From the NCBI RefSeq assembly GCF_000702445.1, contig NZ_JNIF01000004.1, positions 1,054,001-1,118,000 of the forward strand: 64,000 nt of DNA. The letters are read 5' to 3'. Shown one piece after another: positions 21,440 to 26,813 of the stretch (position 1 is its first letter; each line of letters starts with the position of its first letter). A model generated the notes under the pieces. That model was not told where the DNA came from, made no database searches, and saw only the letters and a program-made list of their open reading frames with translations. The translations under genes were made by a program, and so were the position numbers. This DNA comes from Bryobacter aggregatus MPL3. GTDB taxonomy: Bacteria > Acidobacteriota > Terriglobia > Bryobacterales > Bryobacteraceae.

Positions 21440-22030
21440 ATGATGTTGAGGTTGATCCCGATTGTAGTACTCGGCGCGATGCTCGCCCCCGCTGTCACAT
21501 TGACTCCTGGGGAGCGCCAGCGTGCCATGAGTGAATTGCATGCGTCGCGAAAATTGCTGCTGGATGCGATGGCAAATTTGAGCGAAGCGCAAATGAAATG
21601 GAAGCCGGCCGCCGATCGCTGGTCGCTGGCGCAGTTGGCCGATCACCTGGCGTTGACGGAGGACCATATGCTGTCCCTCTACCGCAAAGCGGCCAGCAGC
21701 CCCGCCGATCCTGCGCGGAAGAGCGCGCAAAAAGATGAAGAAGTGCTCGCTTCGGTTCGAGACCGGAAGCAGAAGATGAAGGCGCCCGAAGTGATTGAGC
21801 CCAAAGAAGGCTACGCCAATTCCACCAAGCGGTTAGCCGATTTTAGGACCAAGCGGGACCAGACGATCGCGCTAGTGGAGGCCACCCAGGATCAGGACTT
21901 GCGGCATAAAATTTTGCCGGATTTCGAAATCGATGCCTATCAGGTGTATCTGTTGCTGGCCGCCCATACGGAACGGCATCTGGGACAGATTGCCGAAACC
22001 AAGGCCGCTCCGGGCTTTCCTACTAAATAA
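21440..22030 (+). CDS. Exported DinB-like four-helix protein
   Basis: 196 residues. The N-terminal LIPIVVLGAMLAPAVTL is a signal peptide or membrane anchor. The rest matches the DinB/YfiT-like four-helix bundle: LLDAMANLSEAQMKWKPAADRWSLAQLADHLALTEDHM and the C-terminal LLLAAHTERHLGQI. Histidines at ADHLA, TEDH and HTERH could form the typical metal site. DinB-fold enzymes are usually cytoplasmic thiol or metal-dependent enzymes, so export is unusual. Two ATGs (21440, 21443) with weak ribosome sites are available. A stronger AGGAGA precedes an out-of-frame ATG at 21415. It converges on hppA with an 8-base overlap. Confidence 0.85.
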   Translation: MMLRLIPIVVLGAMLAPAVTLTPGERQRAMSELHASRKLLLDAMANLSEAQMKWKPAADRWSLAQLADHLALTEDHMLSLYRKAASSPADPARKSAQKDEEVLASVRDRKQKMKAPEVIEPKEGYANSTKRLADFRTKRDQTIALVEATQDQDLRHKILPDFEIDAYQVYLLLAAHTERHLGQIAETKAAPGFPTK

Positions 22031-24185
22031 ATAGCGGTGCGGCCACCAGCGTAATGGTGGCCAATAGCTTAATGAGAACGTGAATCGACGGACCAGCGGT
22101 GTCCTTGAAGGGGTCTCCGACCGTATCGCCGACAACGCTGGCCTTGTGCGCATCGGAGCCCTTGCCGCCATAGTGTCCGAGTTCGATGTACTTCTTCGCG
22201 TTATCCCAGGCGCCGCCTCCATTGTTCATGAAGGAGGCCATCAGGATTCCTGTGATCGTTCCCACCATGAGCAGGGCGGCGACGGCACAGGCTCCCATGG
22301 GAGTGCCATCGGCGGCGGGGGGCAATTGCTTGAAGAGCAGCCCGACGACGATGGGGGCAAGGACCGGCAGTGCACCGGGGACAATCATCGCCCGCAATGC
22401 GCCACGAGTGACGATGTCGACACATTGGCGGTAATTGGGCAGGCTGGTGCCGGCGAGGATGCCCGGGTTCTCCTGGAATTGCCGCCGCACTTCCCAGATC
22501 ACGGTTTGCGCCACCCGGCCCACGGCCTGGATCGCCAAAGAGCTGAATACAAAAACAAGCATGGCCCCGAGCAAGGCACCGAGGAAGACAGGAACCTGTC
22601 CGATGTCGACACTGAAGGGAATCTGGTCAAATTCTTTGCCGAGCCGCTTCGCCAGCACCAGTTTTACCTCATCGATGTAGGCACTGAAGAGGAGGAAGGC
22701 GGCGAGCGCGGCGCTGCCGATGGCGTAGCCCTTGGTCAAAGCCTTTGTGGTGTTGCCTGCGGCATCGAGAAGATCGGTCCGATGGCGCACTTCGGGAGCC
22801 TGCTTCGACATTTCGACAATGCCGCCAGCATTGTCGGTAATCGGGCCGAAGGTGTCCATGGCGAGGACATAGGCAGCAGTGGAGAGCACGCCCATGGTGG
22901 CGATGGCGGTGCCATAAAGACCGCTCGACAACAGGGTGACCCCTGGGAGTGCCGCTTGCATCCCCATCCAATACGACGTGAAGATGGCGGCGGTGATCGT
23001 AAGGACCACCAGCCCGGTGCACTCCATTCCGACAGCAAGGCCTGTGATGATGGCGGTAGCCGGGCCCGTCGTGCAGCTTTCGGCAATGAAGCGGACAGGG
23101 CGATGTGTGTGGTCTGTGTAATATTGCGTGAGAAAAACGAAGAGGAAGCTGGTGAGGATGCCGACGACACCCGCTCCGAAGAGCCATAGGTTGCCGCCGA
23201 GGAGTTGGCGAATTGCCAGGTAGAAGCCGCCAATCGCAATCGCACTGGTGACATAGAAGCCACGGTTGAGTGCGCGCATGGGGTCCTCATTGCCCTTGAG
23301 ACGGACAGTGAAAACGCCAACGATGCTGGCGATGAGACCGAGGGCGCAGGTGTAGAGGGGGAACAGGATTCCGGAGAGGCCGAAGACTTTATAGAGCGTG
23401 ACGCCAAGAATCATGGCGCCAATGTTCTCAGCGGCGGTGGATTCGAAGATGTCGGCGCCGCGACCAGCGCAGTCTCCCACATTGTCGCCGACAAGATCCG
23501 CAATGACGGCGGGATTGCGGGGGTCGTCTTCCGGAATTCCGGCTTCCATCTTGCCGACGAGGTCGGCTCCAACGTCGGCAGCCTTGGTATAGATGCCGCC
23601 GCCCAGTTGTGCAAAGAGGGCGACAAAGCTCGCGCCAAAACCGAAGGCAACAATCTGACCGGGTACATCCTGCGGTCTGGTGAGTCCATCGAAAAAGGCA
23701 AAGAGTAAGGTCACGCCGAAGGTGGACAGCGCGGTGACTGCGATGCCGGTGACGGCCCCGCCCCGCAAGGCGATCTGCATCGCTTCGCCGAGGCTGGAGC
23801 GGGCGGCAGCAGCAACGCGGATGTTGGCTCGAATCGAAACCCACATCCCGCTGAAGCCAGCGGCCAGCGAACACATCGCGCCGAAGAGAAAGCTGATGGT
23901 CATGCGGACGGCGAGCTGCGTGTCGCCTTTGCCCACCAGGTAGCTCACATAAATGATGACGGCAAGCAGAATAGAAAGACCGGCGATGGTGACATTCTGC
24001 CGGCTCATGTACGCTTCAGCGCCTTCCTTGATGGCGTCAGAGATCTTTCGCATCTCCGGGGTTCCTGTGTCCTTCGCAAGAACAAATCGCGCAAGGTACA
24101 AGGCAACGATCATGCCAAACGCGCTAATGCCGAGAATCGAGACGAGGATTGATTGGCCGCTAGCAGCACTGAGGTACATATTCAC
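22023..24185 (-). CDS. hppA: Membrane-bound proton-pumping pyrophosphatase, K+-independent type
   Basis: 720 residues with about 16 membrane segments, the normal length. It couples PPi hydrolysis to ion pumping across the membrane. Signature sequences are ADVGADLVGKMEAGIPEDDPRNPAVIAD-type substrate loops (in that region the frame reads DVGADLVGKMEAGI), DLVGDNVGDCAGRGADIFES, and GDTVGDPFKDTAGPSIH near the C-terminus. GNTTKALTKGYAIGS carries Lys and Thr where K+-dependent enzymes have Ala and Gly, the mark of the K+-independent, H+-pumping class. The GTG start at 24185 has GGAAAGG about 11 bases upstream; an ATG at 24179 is the alternative. It stands alone, divergent from the aroF leader. Confidence 0.96.
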   Translation of the reverse strand: MNMYLSAASGQSILVSILGISAFGMIVALYLARFVLAKDTGTPEMRKISDAIKEGAEAYMSRQNVTIAGLSILLAVIIYVSYLVGKGDTQLAVRMTISFLFGAMCSLAAGFSGMWVSIRANIRVAAAARSSLGEAMQIALRGGAVTGIAVTALSTFGVTLLFAFFDGLTRPQDVPGQIVAFGFGASFVALFAQLGGGIYTKAADVGADLVGKMEAGIPEDDPRNPAVIADLVGDNVGDCAGRGADIFESTAAENIGAMILGVTLYKVFGLSGILFPLYTCALGLIASIVGVFTVRLKGNEDPMRALNRGFYVTSAIAIGGFYLAIRQLLGGNLWLFGAGVVGILTSFLFVFLTQYYTDHTHRPVRFIAESCTTGPATAIITGLAVGMECTGLVVLTITAAIFTSYWMGMQAALPGVTLLSSGLYGTAIATMGVLSTAAYVLAMDTFGPITDNAGGIVEMSKQAPEVRHRTDLLDAAGNTTKALTKGYAIGSAALAAFLLFSAYIDEVKLVLAKRLGKEFDQIPFSVDIGQVPVFLGALLGAMLVFVFSSLAIQAVGRVAQTVIWEVRRQFQENPGILAGTSLPNYRQCVDIVTRGALRAMIVPGALPVLAPIVVGLLFKQLPPAADGTPMGACAVAALLMVGTITGILMASFMNNGGGAWDNAKKYIELGHYGGKGSDAHKASVVGDTVGDPFKDTAGPSIHVLIKLLATITLVAAPLFI

Positions 24186-24269
24186 GTGTCAAAAAACCTT
24201 TCCGGAAATCCGAAAGCGTTTCATAGCTTACCTGAAAGCTTGACTAGGGATCAATCCGGAATGGCAAAC

Positions 24270-24298
24270 GTGACAACTAAATTTCTTTGAGTTATCAT
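24270..24298 (+). promoter_or_regulatory. Sigma70-type promoter of the aroF leader
   Basis: GTGACA (24270-24275) and TATCAT (24293-24298) are separated by exactly 17 bases; each matches the consensus hexamer at five of six positions. Transcription would start near 24305, only about four bases before the leader peptide ATG at 24309. The message would then be leaderless or nearly so, which fits the absence of a well-spaced ribosome binding site. Confidence 0.65.
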
Positions 24299-24308
24299 TC
24301 GGGAAGTC

Positions 24309-24392
24309 ATGGCCTTTGCCCACTCCTACCGATTTAGCTATTGGTACTTCGCGTTCAGCGAACGAGTGAGCCCCCGTGTCATGAAACATTAA
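24309..24392 (+). CDS. Aromatic-rich leader peptide of the aroF attenuator
   Basis: A 27-codon reading frame, ATG to TAA, too short for ordinary gene calling. It contains four Phe (3, 9, 14, 16), three Tyr (7, 11, 13) and one Trp (12), with the dense run RFSYWYFAF at residues 8-16. Nearly a third of the codons are aromatic. It ends 25 bases before a terminator hairpin that itself lies just upstream of a DAHP synthase gene. Ribosome stalling when any charged aromatic tRNA is scarce would change leader RNA folding. The same design, a leader peptide upstream of aroF, is reported in Corynebacterium glutamicum (recalled, not checked). Confidence 0.8.
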   Translation: MAFAHSYRFSYWYFAFSERVSPRVMKH

Positions 24393-24426
24393 TTCTAATT
24401 TTGATTTAGACAATACGGCCCACTCG
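24352..24426 (+). promoter_or_regulatory. Antiterminator pairing of the aroF attenuator
   Basis: CGTTC (24352-24356) and GAACG (24360-24364) form a small hairpin within the leader's late codons. CGAGTGAGCC (24363-24372) can instead pair with GGCCCACTCG (24417-24426) at nine of ten positions, occupying the left arm of the terminator. The two folds exclude each other. A ribosome stalled on the aromatic codons (24333-24356) masks the first hairpin and frees 24363-24372 for antitermination. A ribosome reaching the stop region covers it and lets the terminator form. Confidence 0.7.
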
Positions 24427-24448
24427 GAAGCTTCCGGGTGGGCCTTTT
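24417..24448 (+). terminator. Attenuator terminator before aroF
   Basis: GGCCCACTCGGAAG (24417-24430) and CTTCCGGGTGGGCC (24431-24444) are complementary over all 14 positions with one U-G wobble, and TTTT follows at 24445-24448. This is a canonical intrinsic terminator. It sits only about 20 bases before the aroF start, which is expected for an attenuator and not for the end of an upstream gene: hppA is divergent. Confidence 0.88.
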
Positions 24449-24466
24449 GCTATTGAGGAGAGCGTT

Positions 24467-25267
24467 GTGAACTTGTTAGTGAGTCGAGAATGCCAGGCGG
24501 AGGATAGTATCGTCCGGGTTGGTGAGATCGCTTTTGGCGATGGCAGCTTCCCGGTGATCGCCGGTCCCTGCAGCGTCGAAAGCGAAGAGCAGTTGATGGC
24601 CTGTGCCGAGGTGATTGCAGAGAGCGGTGGCGCGTTGTTACGCGGCGGGGCGTTCAAGCCGCGCACTTCGCCTTACGAGTTTCAGGGTCTGGGCGAGGAG
24701 GGATTACGTCTGCTTGTTTTGGCGCGGGAGCGTTTCGGACTTGGGGTGGTGACCGAGGTGATGGCCGAAAGCGAGATCGCAATGGTGGCCTCTTATGCTG
24801 ATCTGCTGCAGGTGGGCGCAAGGAACATGCAGAACTACCCTTTGCTGCGGGCGCTGGGGAAATGCGGCAAGCCGGTGTTGTTGAAGCGGGGTCTTTCAGC
24901 AACGTTGAAGGAATGGATGATGGCGGCGGAGTACATTCTGGCGAATGGCAACCCGGATGTGATTCTTTGCGAACGGGGGATTCGGAGTTTCGATTCGCAT
25001 ACGCGCAACGTGCTTGATATTGCTTCGGTGCCTGCGATGCAGGAGATGACGCACTTACCGGTGGTTGTGGACCCGAGCCATGCGACGGGCCGGCGGAGTC
25101 TGATTGCGCCCCTGGCCAAAGCGTCTCTCGCCGTGGGGGCAGACGGCTTGCTGGTGGAATGCCATCCGAATCCGGATAAAGCCTGGAGCGATGGCGCGCA
25201 GAGTCTCGATCTGAATCAGTTTCGCGACATGATGGCGATGCTGCCGTCGCGTATCCTGAAGTCGTGA
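24467..25267 (+). CDS. aroF: 3-deoxy-7-phosphoheptulonate (DAHP) synthase, type I-beta
   Basis: 266 residues. It condenses phosphoenolpyruvate with erythrose 4-phosphate, the first step of the shikimate pathway. Motifs are [12 protein letters not shown] (27-38), [19 protein letters not shown] (63-81), [24 protein letters not shown] and [11 protein letters not shown], with the KPRTS and DPSHATG active-site residues intact. The N-terminal ferredoxin-like regulatory domain of the Thermotoga enzyme and the chorismate mutase domain of Bacillus enzymes are both absent. Feedback control may therefore be mainly at the attenuator. The GTG start has GAGGAGAG (24455-24462) upstream. Its stop overlaps the next start (GTGA). 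Confidence 0.96.
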
Positions 25268-25902
25268 AACGATGGTTGCCTGCAGCAGCGCTGATTGGGT
25301 TGGGCGCACTGTGGCTTTGGACTCGACAGCATAGTATGACCGTAGCCGATATGGTGCGGCACCTGCCCAGCAACGAAGGAATCGTCCTGGTTGTGGACCG
25401 CGCGGTGATCGCCCAACTGGCGGGCGAAGCAGGAGGGGAGGAGCCGGAGTATCGGGAATTTATCGAGAAGACCGGCTTTGACTTTCGCAAGGATCTGGAT
25501 CGGATCGTCGCGGTGATCGGGGAACCAGCCAGCTACTATGTCGCGAGCGGCCGTTTTGACTGGAAGAAGATTTCCGCTTATGCCGGAAACTGTGTGAAGG
25601 ATGTCTGCGCGATGCCGGCAAGCCAGCCGGAACGGTGGATTTCTTTGACCCGGCTGAGCGGCAATACGATGGCGATTGCCGTATCGCCAGTCCAGTTTGC
25701 GGTGACCTCGATGGAGGTGTCACGCACACCGATAGTCGAGTGGCGGGATACACCCTTGTGGATCCGCGGCAAGGGCAAGTATTTCTCGCGGTGGGGATTG
25801 AGCGGGGAGGAGATGGTGGAAGCACAACTGAAAGGGCGGGCCTTGGAATTGAAGGCAGGCACAGTCAGCAGGACAATTCCGCTCGATAAGGTGTTTGATT
25901 GA
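25264..25902 (+). CDS. Single-pass membrane protein of unknown function in the aroF operon
   Basis: 212 residues. One N-terminal membrane helix or uncleaved signal ([15 protein letters not shown]) is followed by an extracytoplasmic domain of about 185 residues. Recognisable stretches are [20 protein letters not shown] and [15 protein letters not shown]. This pattern of a VDxA-like strand and an FDxxKDLD segment recalls a group of uncharacterised acidobacterial proteins, but I know no function. Two cysteines (CVKDVC) may form a disulfide. It overlaps both neighbours by four bases (GTGA and TTGA), so it should be translated with aroF and the kinase and share the attenuator. Confidence 0.75.
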
Positions 25903-26813
25903 GCCGGGTGTTGGTGGCGGGCAATCTGGTGTTGGATCTGCTTGCCTGGCCCGTAACGGAGTTGCGTTGGGATGGCACGATCTGGGTGGATGAGTTTGCG
26001 CGGAGTGTCGGTGGCAATGGCGCGAATACGTCCTATACGCTCGCGAAGATGGGTGTCGAGGTGATGCTGGCAGGCGCGGTCGGAAAGGATGCCGAAGGTA
26101 CGGAGCTGCTGGGGCTCTTGGAGGACGTGGGCGTGGAGACCAGCGGCGTCAAGCGATTGGCACTGCCAACTCCGACGACACTCGCCATGGTGAAGAAAAC
26201 CGGAGAGCGGGCCTTTGTACACCGGCCTGGGGCGAGCCGCGGGGCGCTCACCAAGGCGCTGCGGATGCCGAAAGCAGAGCATTTCCATGTCGCGAATCCG
26301 TTTGGGGTTCCGGCGTTGCGGACGCTGGCCCCTGAGAATCTGCGTCGTGCGAAGAAGGCGGGGATGACGACCTCTCTCGATGCCGGTTGGGATTCTCGCG
26401 GGGAGTGGGGGAGCGTCGTGCTTCCCTGCCTCGAATGGGTGGATGTCTTGTTCGTCAACGAGGAAGAGGCGATGCTGATCAGTGGCGCAAAGAGTTGGCA
26501 AGCGGCGATTCCGTTGTTGCCAGCCAAGCGGGTGGTGCTCAAGCGTGGCAAGCAAGGGGCCGTGGTGGATGGCGTGGCTGTGCCTGGTTATACCGTTGCC
26601 GCGATGGACTCGACGGGCGCCGGAGACGTCTTTGCCGGAGCCTGGATTGCTGCGTCGCTCCGAGGCCAACCGCCCGTTGCCGCCACCCAGTTTGCGAATG
26701 CGGCTGCGGCGCTCAGTGTGACAAAACTTGGTTCGATTGCAGGGGTGCGGAGCTTCAGGCAGACGGCGCAGTGGATGCAGGCGCAGCATCGATCATCTTT
26801 GCAACCGGCTTGA
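25899..26813 (+). CDS. PfkB/ribokinase family sugar or nucleoside kinase
   Basis: 304 residues. The N-terminal VAGNLVLDLLAWPV and the SVGGNGANTSYTLAKMG glycine motif (about 36-52) bind substrate. DSTGAGDVFAGAW (237-249) holds the catalytic base Asp243 and the anion hole. The length fits the family. The substrate cannot be read from sequence; ribokinase-, fructokinase- or adenosine-kinase-like use are all possible. The TTG start overlaps the preceding stop (TTGA). It is the last gene of the aroF operon, an unexpected place for a sugar kinase. Its final 59 bases overlap the convergent peptide transporter. Confidence 0.9.
   Translation: MSRVLVAGNLVLDLLAWPVTELRWDGTIWVDEFARSVGGNGANTSYTLAKMGVEVMLAGAVGKDAEGTELLGLLEDVGVETSGVKRLALPTPTTLAMVKKTGERAFVHRPGASRGALTKALRMPKAEHFHVANPFGVPALRTLAPENLRRAKKAGMTTSLDAGWDSRGEWGSVVLPCLEWVDVLFVNEEEAMLISGAKSWQAAIPLLPAKRVVLKRGKQGAVVDGVAVPGYTVAAMDSTGAGDVFAGAWIAASLRGQPPVAATQFANAAAALSVTKLGSIAGVRSFRQTAQWMQAQHRSSLQPA

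Follow-up and report, generated by a model that had tools for sequence, protein, structure and literature searches.

A leader region upstream of the DAHP synthase gene

The window (the whole stretch of 64,000 nt from Bryobacter aggregatus MPL3 that was analysed) contains a gene for a type-Ibeta DAHP synthase, here called aroF, and a divergent gene for a membrane pyrophosphatase. The gap between these two genes (24186-24466) holds the leader region, and a Shine-Dalgarno-like GAGGAG (24455-24460) lies ahead of the GTG start of aroF. The features of the locus are listed in Table 1. Since the terminator is aimed at aroF and lies between divergent genes, it serves no upstream gene. A preliminary description had placed a promoter, an aromatic-rich ORF and two mutually exclusive helices here, with DAHP synthase as the target. 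Promoter, ORF and helices are each present in the sequence where they had been placed, and the gene directly downstream of the leader matches TIGR01361.

Table 1. Features of the aroF locus (positions refer to the window)
Feature	Position	Strand	Remarks
Membrane pyrophosphatase gene	22023-24185	minus	Divergent from the DAHP synthase gene
Sigma-70-like promoter	24270-24298	+	-35 GTGACA, 17-nt spacer, -10 TATCAT
Leader peptide ORF	24309-24392	+	27 codons; ATG 24309; TAA stop 24390-24392
Segment 1	24318-24325 (about)	+	Pairs with segment 2 (24364-24371) as the protector (anti-antiterminator) stem; derived from folds
Protector-domain hairpin 1	24327-24346	+	24327-24333 with 24340-24346, over aromatic codons
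Protector-domain hairpin 2	24348-24362	+	24348-24352 with 24358-24362
Segment 2, CGAGTGAGCC	24363-24372	+	Antiterminator 5' arm; the family keeps the core GAGTGG
Segment 3, GGCCCACTCG	24417-24426	+	Pairs with segment 2 in the antiterminator and with segment 4 in the terminator
Intrinsic terminator	24417-24448	+	12-bp hairpin 24417-24444, then TTTT 24445-24448
DAHP synthase gene (aroF)	24467-25267	+	Type Ibeta, 266 aa; TIGR01361 at 380.6 bits (cut-off 267.75)
212-aa gene	25264-25902	+	Function unassigned; overlaps the end of aroF
PfkB/ribokinase-like gene	25899-26813	+	Overlapping; matches under curated cut-offs

The predicted promoter matches 10 of the 12 consensus bases and was the only promoter-like site detected when both strands of 24000-24700 were scanned (0.4 expected from shuffles). 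Its sequence suggests that it is used, and transcription would then be expected to start near 24304-24306. The leader ORF encodes MAFAHSYRFSYWYFAFSERVSPRVMKH (4 F, 3 Y, 1 W) and is near-leaderless, as it begins about 4 nt past this likely start; the -10 box ends 10 nt ahead of the ATG, so that hardly any space is left for a Shine-Dalgarno sequence. Such a start is not odd in Acidobacteria, since leaderless genes averaged 13.3% over three genomes of this group in a 2011 survey, according to excerpts of that paper (PMC3160421). An ORF with at least seven aromatic residues within 10 codons appeared in 2 of 2000 first-order Markov simulations of the same region.

The terminator hairpin contains 9 GC pairs among its 12, and no hairpin of at least 12 pairs, at least 9 of them GC, followed by TTTT, occurred in 2000 first-order Markov simulations. 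A loose scan of 24000-24700 returned two terminator-like sites (expected 0.9 ± 0.9), the second of which is weak and lies on the minus strand. The U tract of the window terminator is short, which counts against an attenuator. As for the two helices of the preliminary description, the positions are right: segments 2 and 3 form 9 of 10 antiterminator pairs, with one A/C mismatch (24369/24420), and compete with the 12 pairs and TTTT of the terminator. Position 24369 is G in the six other leaders of the window's genus. The antiterminator duplex has an energy of -16.2 kcal/mol, a value that 63 of 2000 simulated leaders also reached. On the window sequence, the terminator and the peptide exceed chance; the antiterminator taken on this sequence alone is only weakly significant, and it is the comparison with relatives that settles it.

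Segment 2 sits wholly within the leader ORF of the window. Segment 1, its partner in the protector stem, was overlooked in the preliminary description; the outer two pairs of this stem (at 24318 and 24319) are often broken in the window's genus. All seven pairs of protector hairpin 1 are retained in the seven leaders of the genus, a near invariance that makes them uninformative, while the outer pair of hairpin 2 is TA in three of these leaders, AT in one, GC in one and mismatched in two.

A counterpart of the 212-aa protein follows DAHP synthase in a locus from another genus (L091:2338-3255; 31% identity over 162 aa), so that the 212-aa gene is probably in the same operon as aroF and appears as a conserved operon partner of DAHP synthase. 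The PfkB/ribokinase-like gene is probably on the aroF transcript as well. Pfam gave no matches for the 212-aa protein or this counterpart, and NCBIfam gave none for the window's protein.

Searching the window's genome with a leader RNA model returned five matches at E <= 1, and of the two best, which were read, the window's is the one convincing copy. The other (L195, E 0.006) was rejected as a second leader, since the stretch read shows a plain terminator and no aromatic ORF. The second DAHP synthase of the genome is of the AroFGH type (TIGR00034) and has no dense aromatic stretch upstream; in the 600 nt before this match and the PF00800 (pheA-type) and PF02153 (tyrA-type) matches, the best stretch had 4 aromatic codons in 10, and none was dense. 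Upstream of a chorismate-binding frame (L272) no convincing Trp leader was found. This frame of 791 codons and TrpC are present in the same genome (G000), in which the anthranilate synthase N-terminal domain PF04715 had no hits. An absence of Trp synthesis does not follow from this, since PF00425 and TrpC matches are present; the missing PF04715 hit reflects either a divergent TrpE or a gap.

Conservation and spread of the leader

DAHP synthase is matched at E <= 1e-60 in 146 of the 150 genomes of the window's family, and the best 80 of 200 loci from the DAHP synthase search of relatives were taken. Six other leaders from the window's genus (L001-L006) carry the peptide, the segments and the terminator. 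At E <= 1e-5 the leader RNA model matches in 7 of the 8 genomes of this genus; the eighth, without a leader match at this threshold, is also without a DAHP synthase match at E <= 1e-60 (G129). In one of the six loci (L006:2388 on) the leader is intact, but the DAHP synthase that follows matches only from residue 64, and the frame opened by its start codon meets a stop, which is due either to a broken gene or to an assembly error.

An ORF with at least six aromatic residues in 12 codons was present upstream of 34 of the family's 60 further best DAHP synthase hits, compared to 0 of 20 lower-scoring hits (18 that rank second or third in their genome and 2 low-scoring best hits) and 1 of 600 simulations. 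For at least five aromatics in 12 codons, the corresponding numbers were 46 of 60, 2 of 20 and 29 of 600. Terminator and antiterminator, each by our criteria, were both detected in 42 of the 60 regions upstream of the further best hits, and no terminator was detected in the 20 regions upstream of the lower-scoring hits, one of which is just 109 nt long. Leaders were then chosen by aromatic core, terminator motif and spacing; segment 2 played no part in this choice. Leaders by this definition were found in 62 of 92 distinct relatives, and some of the other 30 are cut by contig ends or lack a detected terminator. Sixty relatives and the window make up alignment A1 of 61 leaders. The start codon is ATG in 60 of them and GTG in one, and 60 have a -10-like hexamer, located 8-10 nt ahead of the start codon in 42.

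Both helices were tested for paired cells and compensatory changes in A1, and kinship among the leaders inflates all shuffle comparisons given here. The antiterminator (11 pairs) is paired in 90.6% of 670 cells, versus 31-47% in slid controls. Its 24 double-change cells, against 10.3 ± 2.6 in shuffles, were reached in 0 of 500 shuffles, although slid versions still gave up to 19; six pairs changed on both sides, a number equalled in 29 of 500 shuffles. For the terminator (9 pairs), 98.7% of 549 cells are paired and 41 double-change cells were counted (14.1 ± 2.9 in shuffles, reached in 0 of 500), while its four pairs changed on both sides were equalled in 62 of 500 shuffles. Covariation of the protector helix 1:2 (8 pairs) is weak: 77.8% of 477 cells are paired (82.7% for the 6 inner pairs), with 15 double-change cells versus 9.4 ± 2.5 (13 of 500 shuffles). 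The protector fold of the seven genus leaders lies beyond shuffles on two of five measures and within them on three. In four leaders (L093, L127, L138, L164) segments 2, 3 and 4 are altered in concert. The terminators are stronger in the window's genus, at -24.3 kcal/mol, than in the other leaders, at -15.5 kcal/mol. Our data demonstrate that antiterminator and terminator covary beyond shuffles on most measures. The aromatic-rich peptide and both helices, which the preliminary description had proposed for this one genome, are conserved in its relatives, and compensatory changes sought across the 61 leaders were found above shuffles, as double-change cells, in both helices. The preliminary description had named a lack of such conservation as its refutation, and its reading withstood this check.

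To what extent the leader is spread was followed with the RNA model. A draw across the class gave matches at E <= 0.01 in 150 of 299 genomes, many of these matches being weak and probably plain terminators; matches below 1e-8 fell into families f1, f5 and f6 among the matches listed. The best 30 model matches brought 12 loci of family f5, of which 11 hold DAHP synthase and the twelfth lies at a contig end. Thus, an RNA model that contains no gene leads back to DAHP synthase in 11 of 12 f5 loci. A draw of 396 genomes from the phylum gave six matches at E <= 1e-7, three from the window's family and three from family f30 of another class; the one f30 locus that was read (L267) shows aromatic stretch, terminator and DAHP synthase in that order. 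By eye, 5 of 30 DAHP synthase loci of family f10 have a convincing leader; weak model matches (E between 1e-6 and 1e-3; many are from f10) were left out of the leader counts. In f10 loci L229-L232 and L234, aromatic-rich frames and terminators of a third type (GCCGCGA...TCGCGGC) precede DAHP synthase.

Of 53 named loci of Verrucomicrobiota (phylum as given in the sequence record), 3 were dropped for too short an upstream region; 21 of the remaining 50 have an aromatic ORF and then a terminator ahead of DAHP synthase. The same pattern was seen in 1 of 500 simulations and in 0 of 9 Myxococcota controls. All 21 leaders contain F, Y and W. The terminator is often GCCGCAGG...CCTGCGGC, and the stems differ in sequence from the window's (e.g., L030, L037, L062, L072); in 6 of 21 leaders the peptide ends in LRLR over bases able to pair with the terminator. 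Single antiterminators are convincing in part, with 13 of 21 having at most 5 of 100 shuffles as good; alignment A3, with 18 of the 21 leaders, was left out of the pair counts.

A putative ribosome-mediated switch and its inputs

The position of the ribosome was modelled with an assumed footprint of -14 to +15 around the P-site. For the window, with RNA up to 24430, 9 antiterminator pairs can still form when the ribosome is stalled at codons 7-14, 5 when it is stalled at Phe16, and none from codon 19 on. Across the 61 leaders, segment 2 stays accessible for 99% of the aromatic codons if a ribosome stalls with that codon in its A site. In trpL, segment 2 is masked by the ribosome once this has reached the stop codon. 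Relative to segment 2, the stop codon of the 54 leaders from outside the genus lies at -12 to +14 nt, and a ribosome at the stop masks at least 3 of the 6 core bases of segment 2 in 42 of these; in the 7 genus leaders, including the window, the stop lies at +26 and none of the 6 bases is masked. In our view such masking is common in classical attenuators, yet does not define them. Behind a ribosome at the stop codon of the window, segment 1 can fold on segment 2 around the two hairpins with -19.7 kcal/mol. The protector hairpin thus seems necessary for termination in the window's genus, since the ribosome at the stop leaves segment 2 uncovered there. A stronger 1:2 pairing as compensation for the shifted stop was considered and discarded, as the duplex energy is -10.4 kcal/mol in the genus and -11.6 kcal/mol in the others. 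When the complete leader of the window was folded, the terminator was favoured wherever the ribosome was placed, so that antitermination has to be kinetic, in keeping with the classical model.

We consider it highly likely that this leader is a transcription attenuator of the classical ribosome-mediated type, which senses charged aromatic tRNAs and controls DAHP synthase and probably the next two genes. Transcription would begin near 24305, and a ribosome would load on ATG 24309, very close to the 5' end. If tRNA charged with Phe, Tyr or Trp is scarce, the ribosome would stall in codons 7-14 with its front edge short of segment 2; the free segment 2 (24363-24372) could then capture the nascent segment 3 (24417-24426), the terminator would be blocked and aroF transcribed. 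With ample aromatic amino acids, the ribosome would pass through segment 2 to the stop at 24390, segment 1 would close on segment 2 behind it, segment 3 would pair with segment 4 and transcription would end at 24445-24448. With zero translation the protector is predicted to be the most stable fold of the whole leader, which would make the default state off. The ORF, the helices with their mutual exclusion, their conservation and the ribosome geometry can be read from the compared sequences; use of the promoter, stalling, termination and the weight of each amino acid are inferred. The aromatic ORFs before 34 of 60 best but 0 of 20 lower-scoring hits, together with the covariation of both helices on most measures, lend support to the attenuator interpretation of the preliminary description. 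On this comparative evidence, the attenuator is very probably real and kept by many relatives.

The codon content suggests that Phe, Tyr and Trp are sensed together. All 61 aligned leaders contain F, 56 contain Y, 57 contain W and 52 have the three together. Of 392 aromatic codons in the leaders, 80 are Trp codons, versus 24 of 441 in the DAHP synthase genes, an enrichment of nearly four times (Fisher p 5e-11, uncorrected for relatedness). Alternatively, a single amino acid, probably Phe or Tyr, may be sensed by the same attenuator, with the other aromatic codons as passengers. This possibility overlaps with the main explanation and differs from it solely in the input. It would agree with the single Trp codon of the window's leader and with C. 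glutamicum aroR, which responds to Phe limitation while Tyr availability is inert, according to the available part of that paper (PMC11802643). Considering the joint occurrence of all three residues in most of these leaders and in every Verrucomicrobiota leader, and the enrichment of Trp, we regard a single input as rather unlikely.

The leaders also over-use certain codons: TTT accounts for 130 of 201 Phe codons (DAHP synthase genes, 83 of 278) and CGA for 54 of 154 Arg codons (DAHP synthase genes, 66 of 586), an excess of about four-fold in odds for either codon. This bias fits slow codons at the control site, and may also be caused by local structure.

Another kind of sensor would be the nascent peptide itself, which, as in TnaC, would arrest the ribosome on a free aromatic ligand, so that the exact peptide would matter more than its codon content. 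A motif S-F/Y-x-F-W or R-F-W does recur across the leaders of the family, and the peptide is almost unchanging inside the window's genus. However, the order and number of aromatic residues vary widely across the family while the aromatic content persists, and the Verrucomicrobiota leaders reach this content with different peptides. Moreover, arrest caused by the ligand would be expected to switch a biosynthetic gene the wrong way, unless coupled otherwise. A peptide sensor is therefore very improbable. Even less credible is a constitutive premature terminator next to a small coding gene by chance, without any switch. The weak significance of the antiterminator in the window (63 of 2000) would be in line with it, but not the antiterminator pairing and compensatory changes in 61 leaders chosen independently of segment 2, nor the absence of the leader upstream of the 20 lower-scoring hits. 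A riboswitch or T-box was rejected, as Rfam gave no match in the window.

Enzyme architecture and comparison with known attenuators

A ferredoxin-like N-terminal domain (PF18152) precedes the catalytic domain in a relative from the family (L091), and is absent from the window's enzyme and from the two genus relatives tested (L001, L005). The distance from the terminator to the matched catalytic start is 22 nt in the window, 26-41 nt in L001-L006 and 233-315 nt in the 54 other leaders of A1; the short distance in the genus fits a loss of the domain there. Domains of the PF18152 type carry aromatic feedback control in other organisms; our text search for a feedback role of the ferredoxin-like domain returned nothing. 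It is possible, though on balance doubtful, that the trivalent attenuator is ancestral to DAHP synthase regulation across much of the Acidobacteriota, and in Verrucomicrobiota with different stems, and that in the window's genus it replaced allosteric feedback, the enzyme there being without the ferredoxin-like domain, and was rebuilt with a self-folding protector that hides segment 2. The locus suggests a natural swap of allosteric control for attenuation. The natural series of leaders, whose stops range between -12 and +26 nt relative to segment 2, makes masking by the ribosome and hiding by a protector hairpin comparable.

Rfam (release 15, gathering score) gave no match in the window and a single tRNA in 14 loci of relatives. 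Our text search of the literature returned no description of this leader in these phyla; Lopatovskaya et al. 2010 could hold predictions for them. As of 2010, almost no predicted attenuator in this phylum had a likely function, according to the excerpted text of PMC2965389, and the present data assign one. They also extend leader-peptide control to Acidobacteriota and Verrucomicrobiota.

The nearest known system is the aroR-aroF leader of C. glutamicum, for which Neshat et al. 2014 is reportedly the primary paper. There, too, a leader peptide with aromatic codons precedes a DAHP synthase gene controlled by transcription attenuation; in the parts of the sources available, the control residues of aroR are Phe-Tyr-Phe, Phe limitation acts and Tyr is inert, and the host belongs to the Actinobacteria (PMC11802643, PMC4046766). 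Unlike aroR, the family described here contains F, Y and W, is near-leaderless and occurs in Acidobacteriota and Verrucomicrobiota, and in the window's genus segment 2 lies within the ORF.

The scheme of segments 1-4 is that of the E. coli trpL and pheL attenuators, whose leaders have ordinary ribosome binding sites. These respond to one amino acid each, in contrast to the three aromatic ones here, and share the logic of control codons in a leader peptide and a signal from charged tRNA, as summarized in the available portion of a review. Aromatic leader peptides have also been proposed in another phylum outside Proteobacteria and Actinobacteria, as trpL was predicted for the trp operons of Chlamydia; in the excerpts of that paper, this leader is a prediction only, is restricted to Trp and the trp operon and is joined with TrpR (PMC3937554). 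The absence of a ribosome binding site is shared with the ilvBNC leader peptide of C. glutamicum, according to a reference cited in the available text of PMC4046766; that leader differs in its branched-chain control and its actinobacterial host. Our data thus apparently reveal an undescribed family of a well-known kind of switch. Several amino acids are sensed at once also by the ilvGMEDA leader of E. coli, which differs in that these are branched-chain amino acids and no DAHP synthase is controlled. New are the family, the phyla in which it occurs and its three-aromatic composition, while the mechanism itself is classical.
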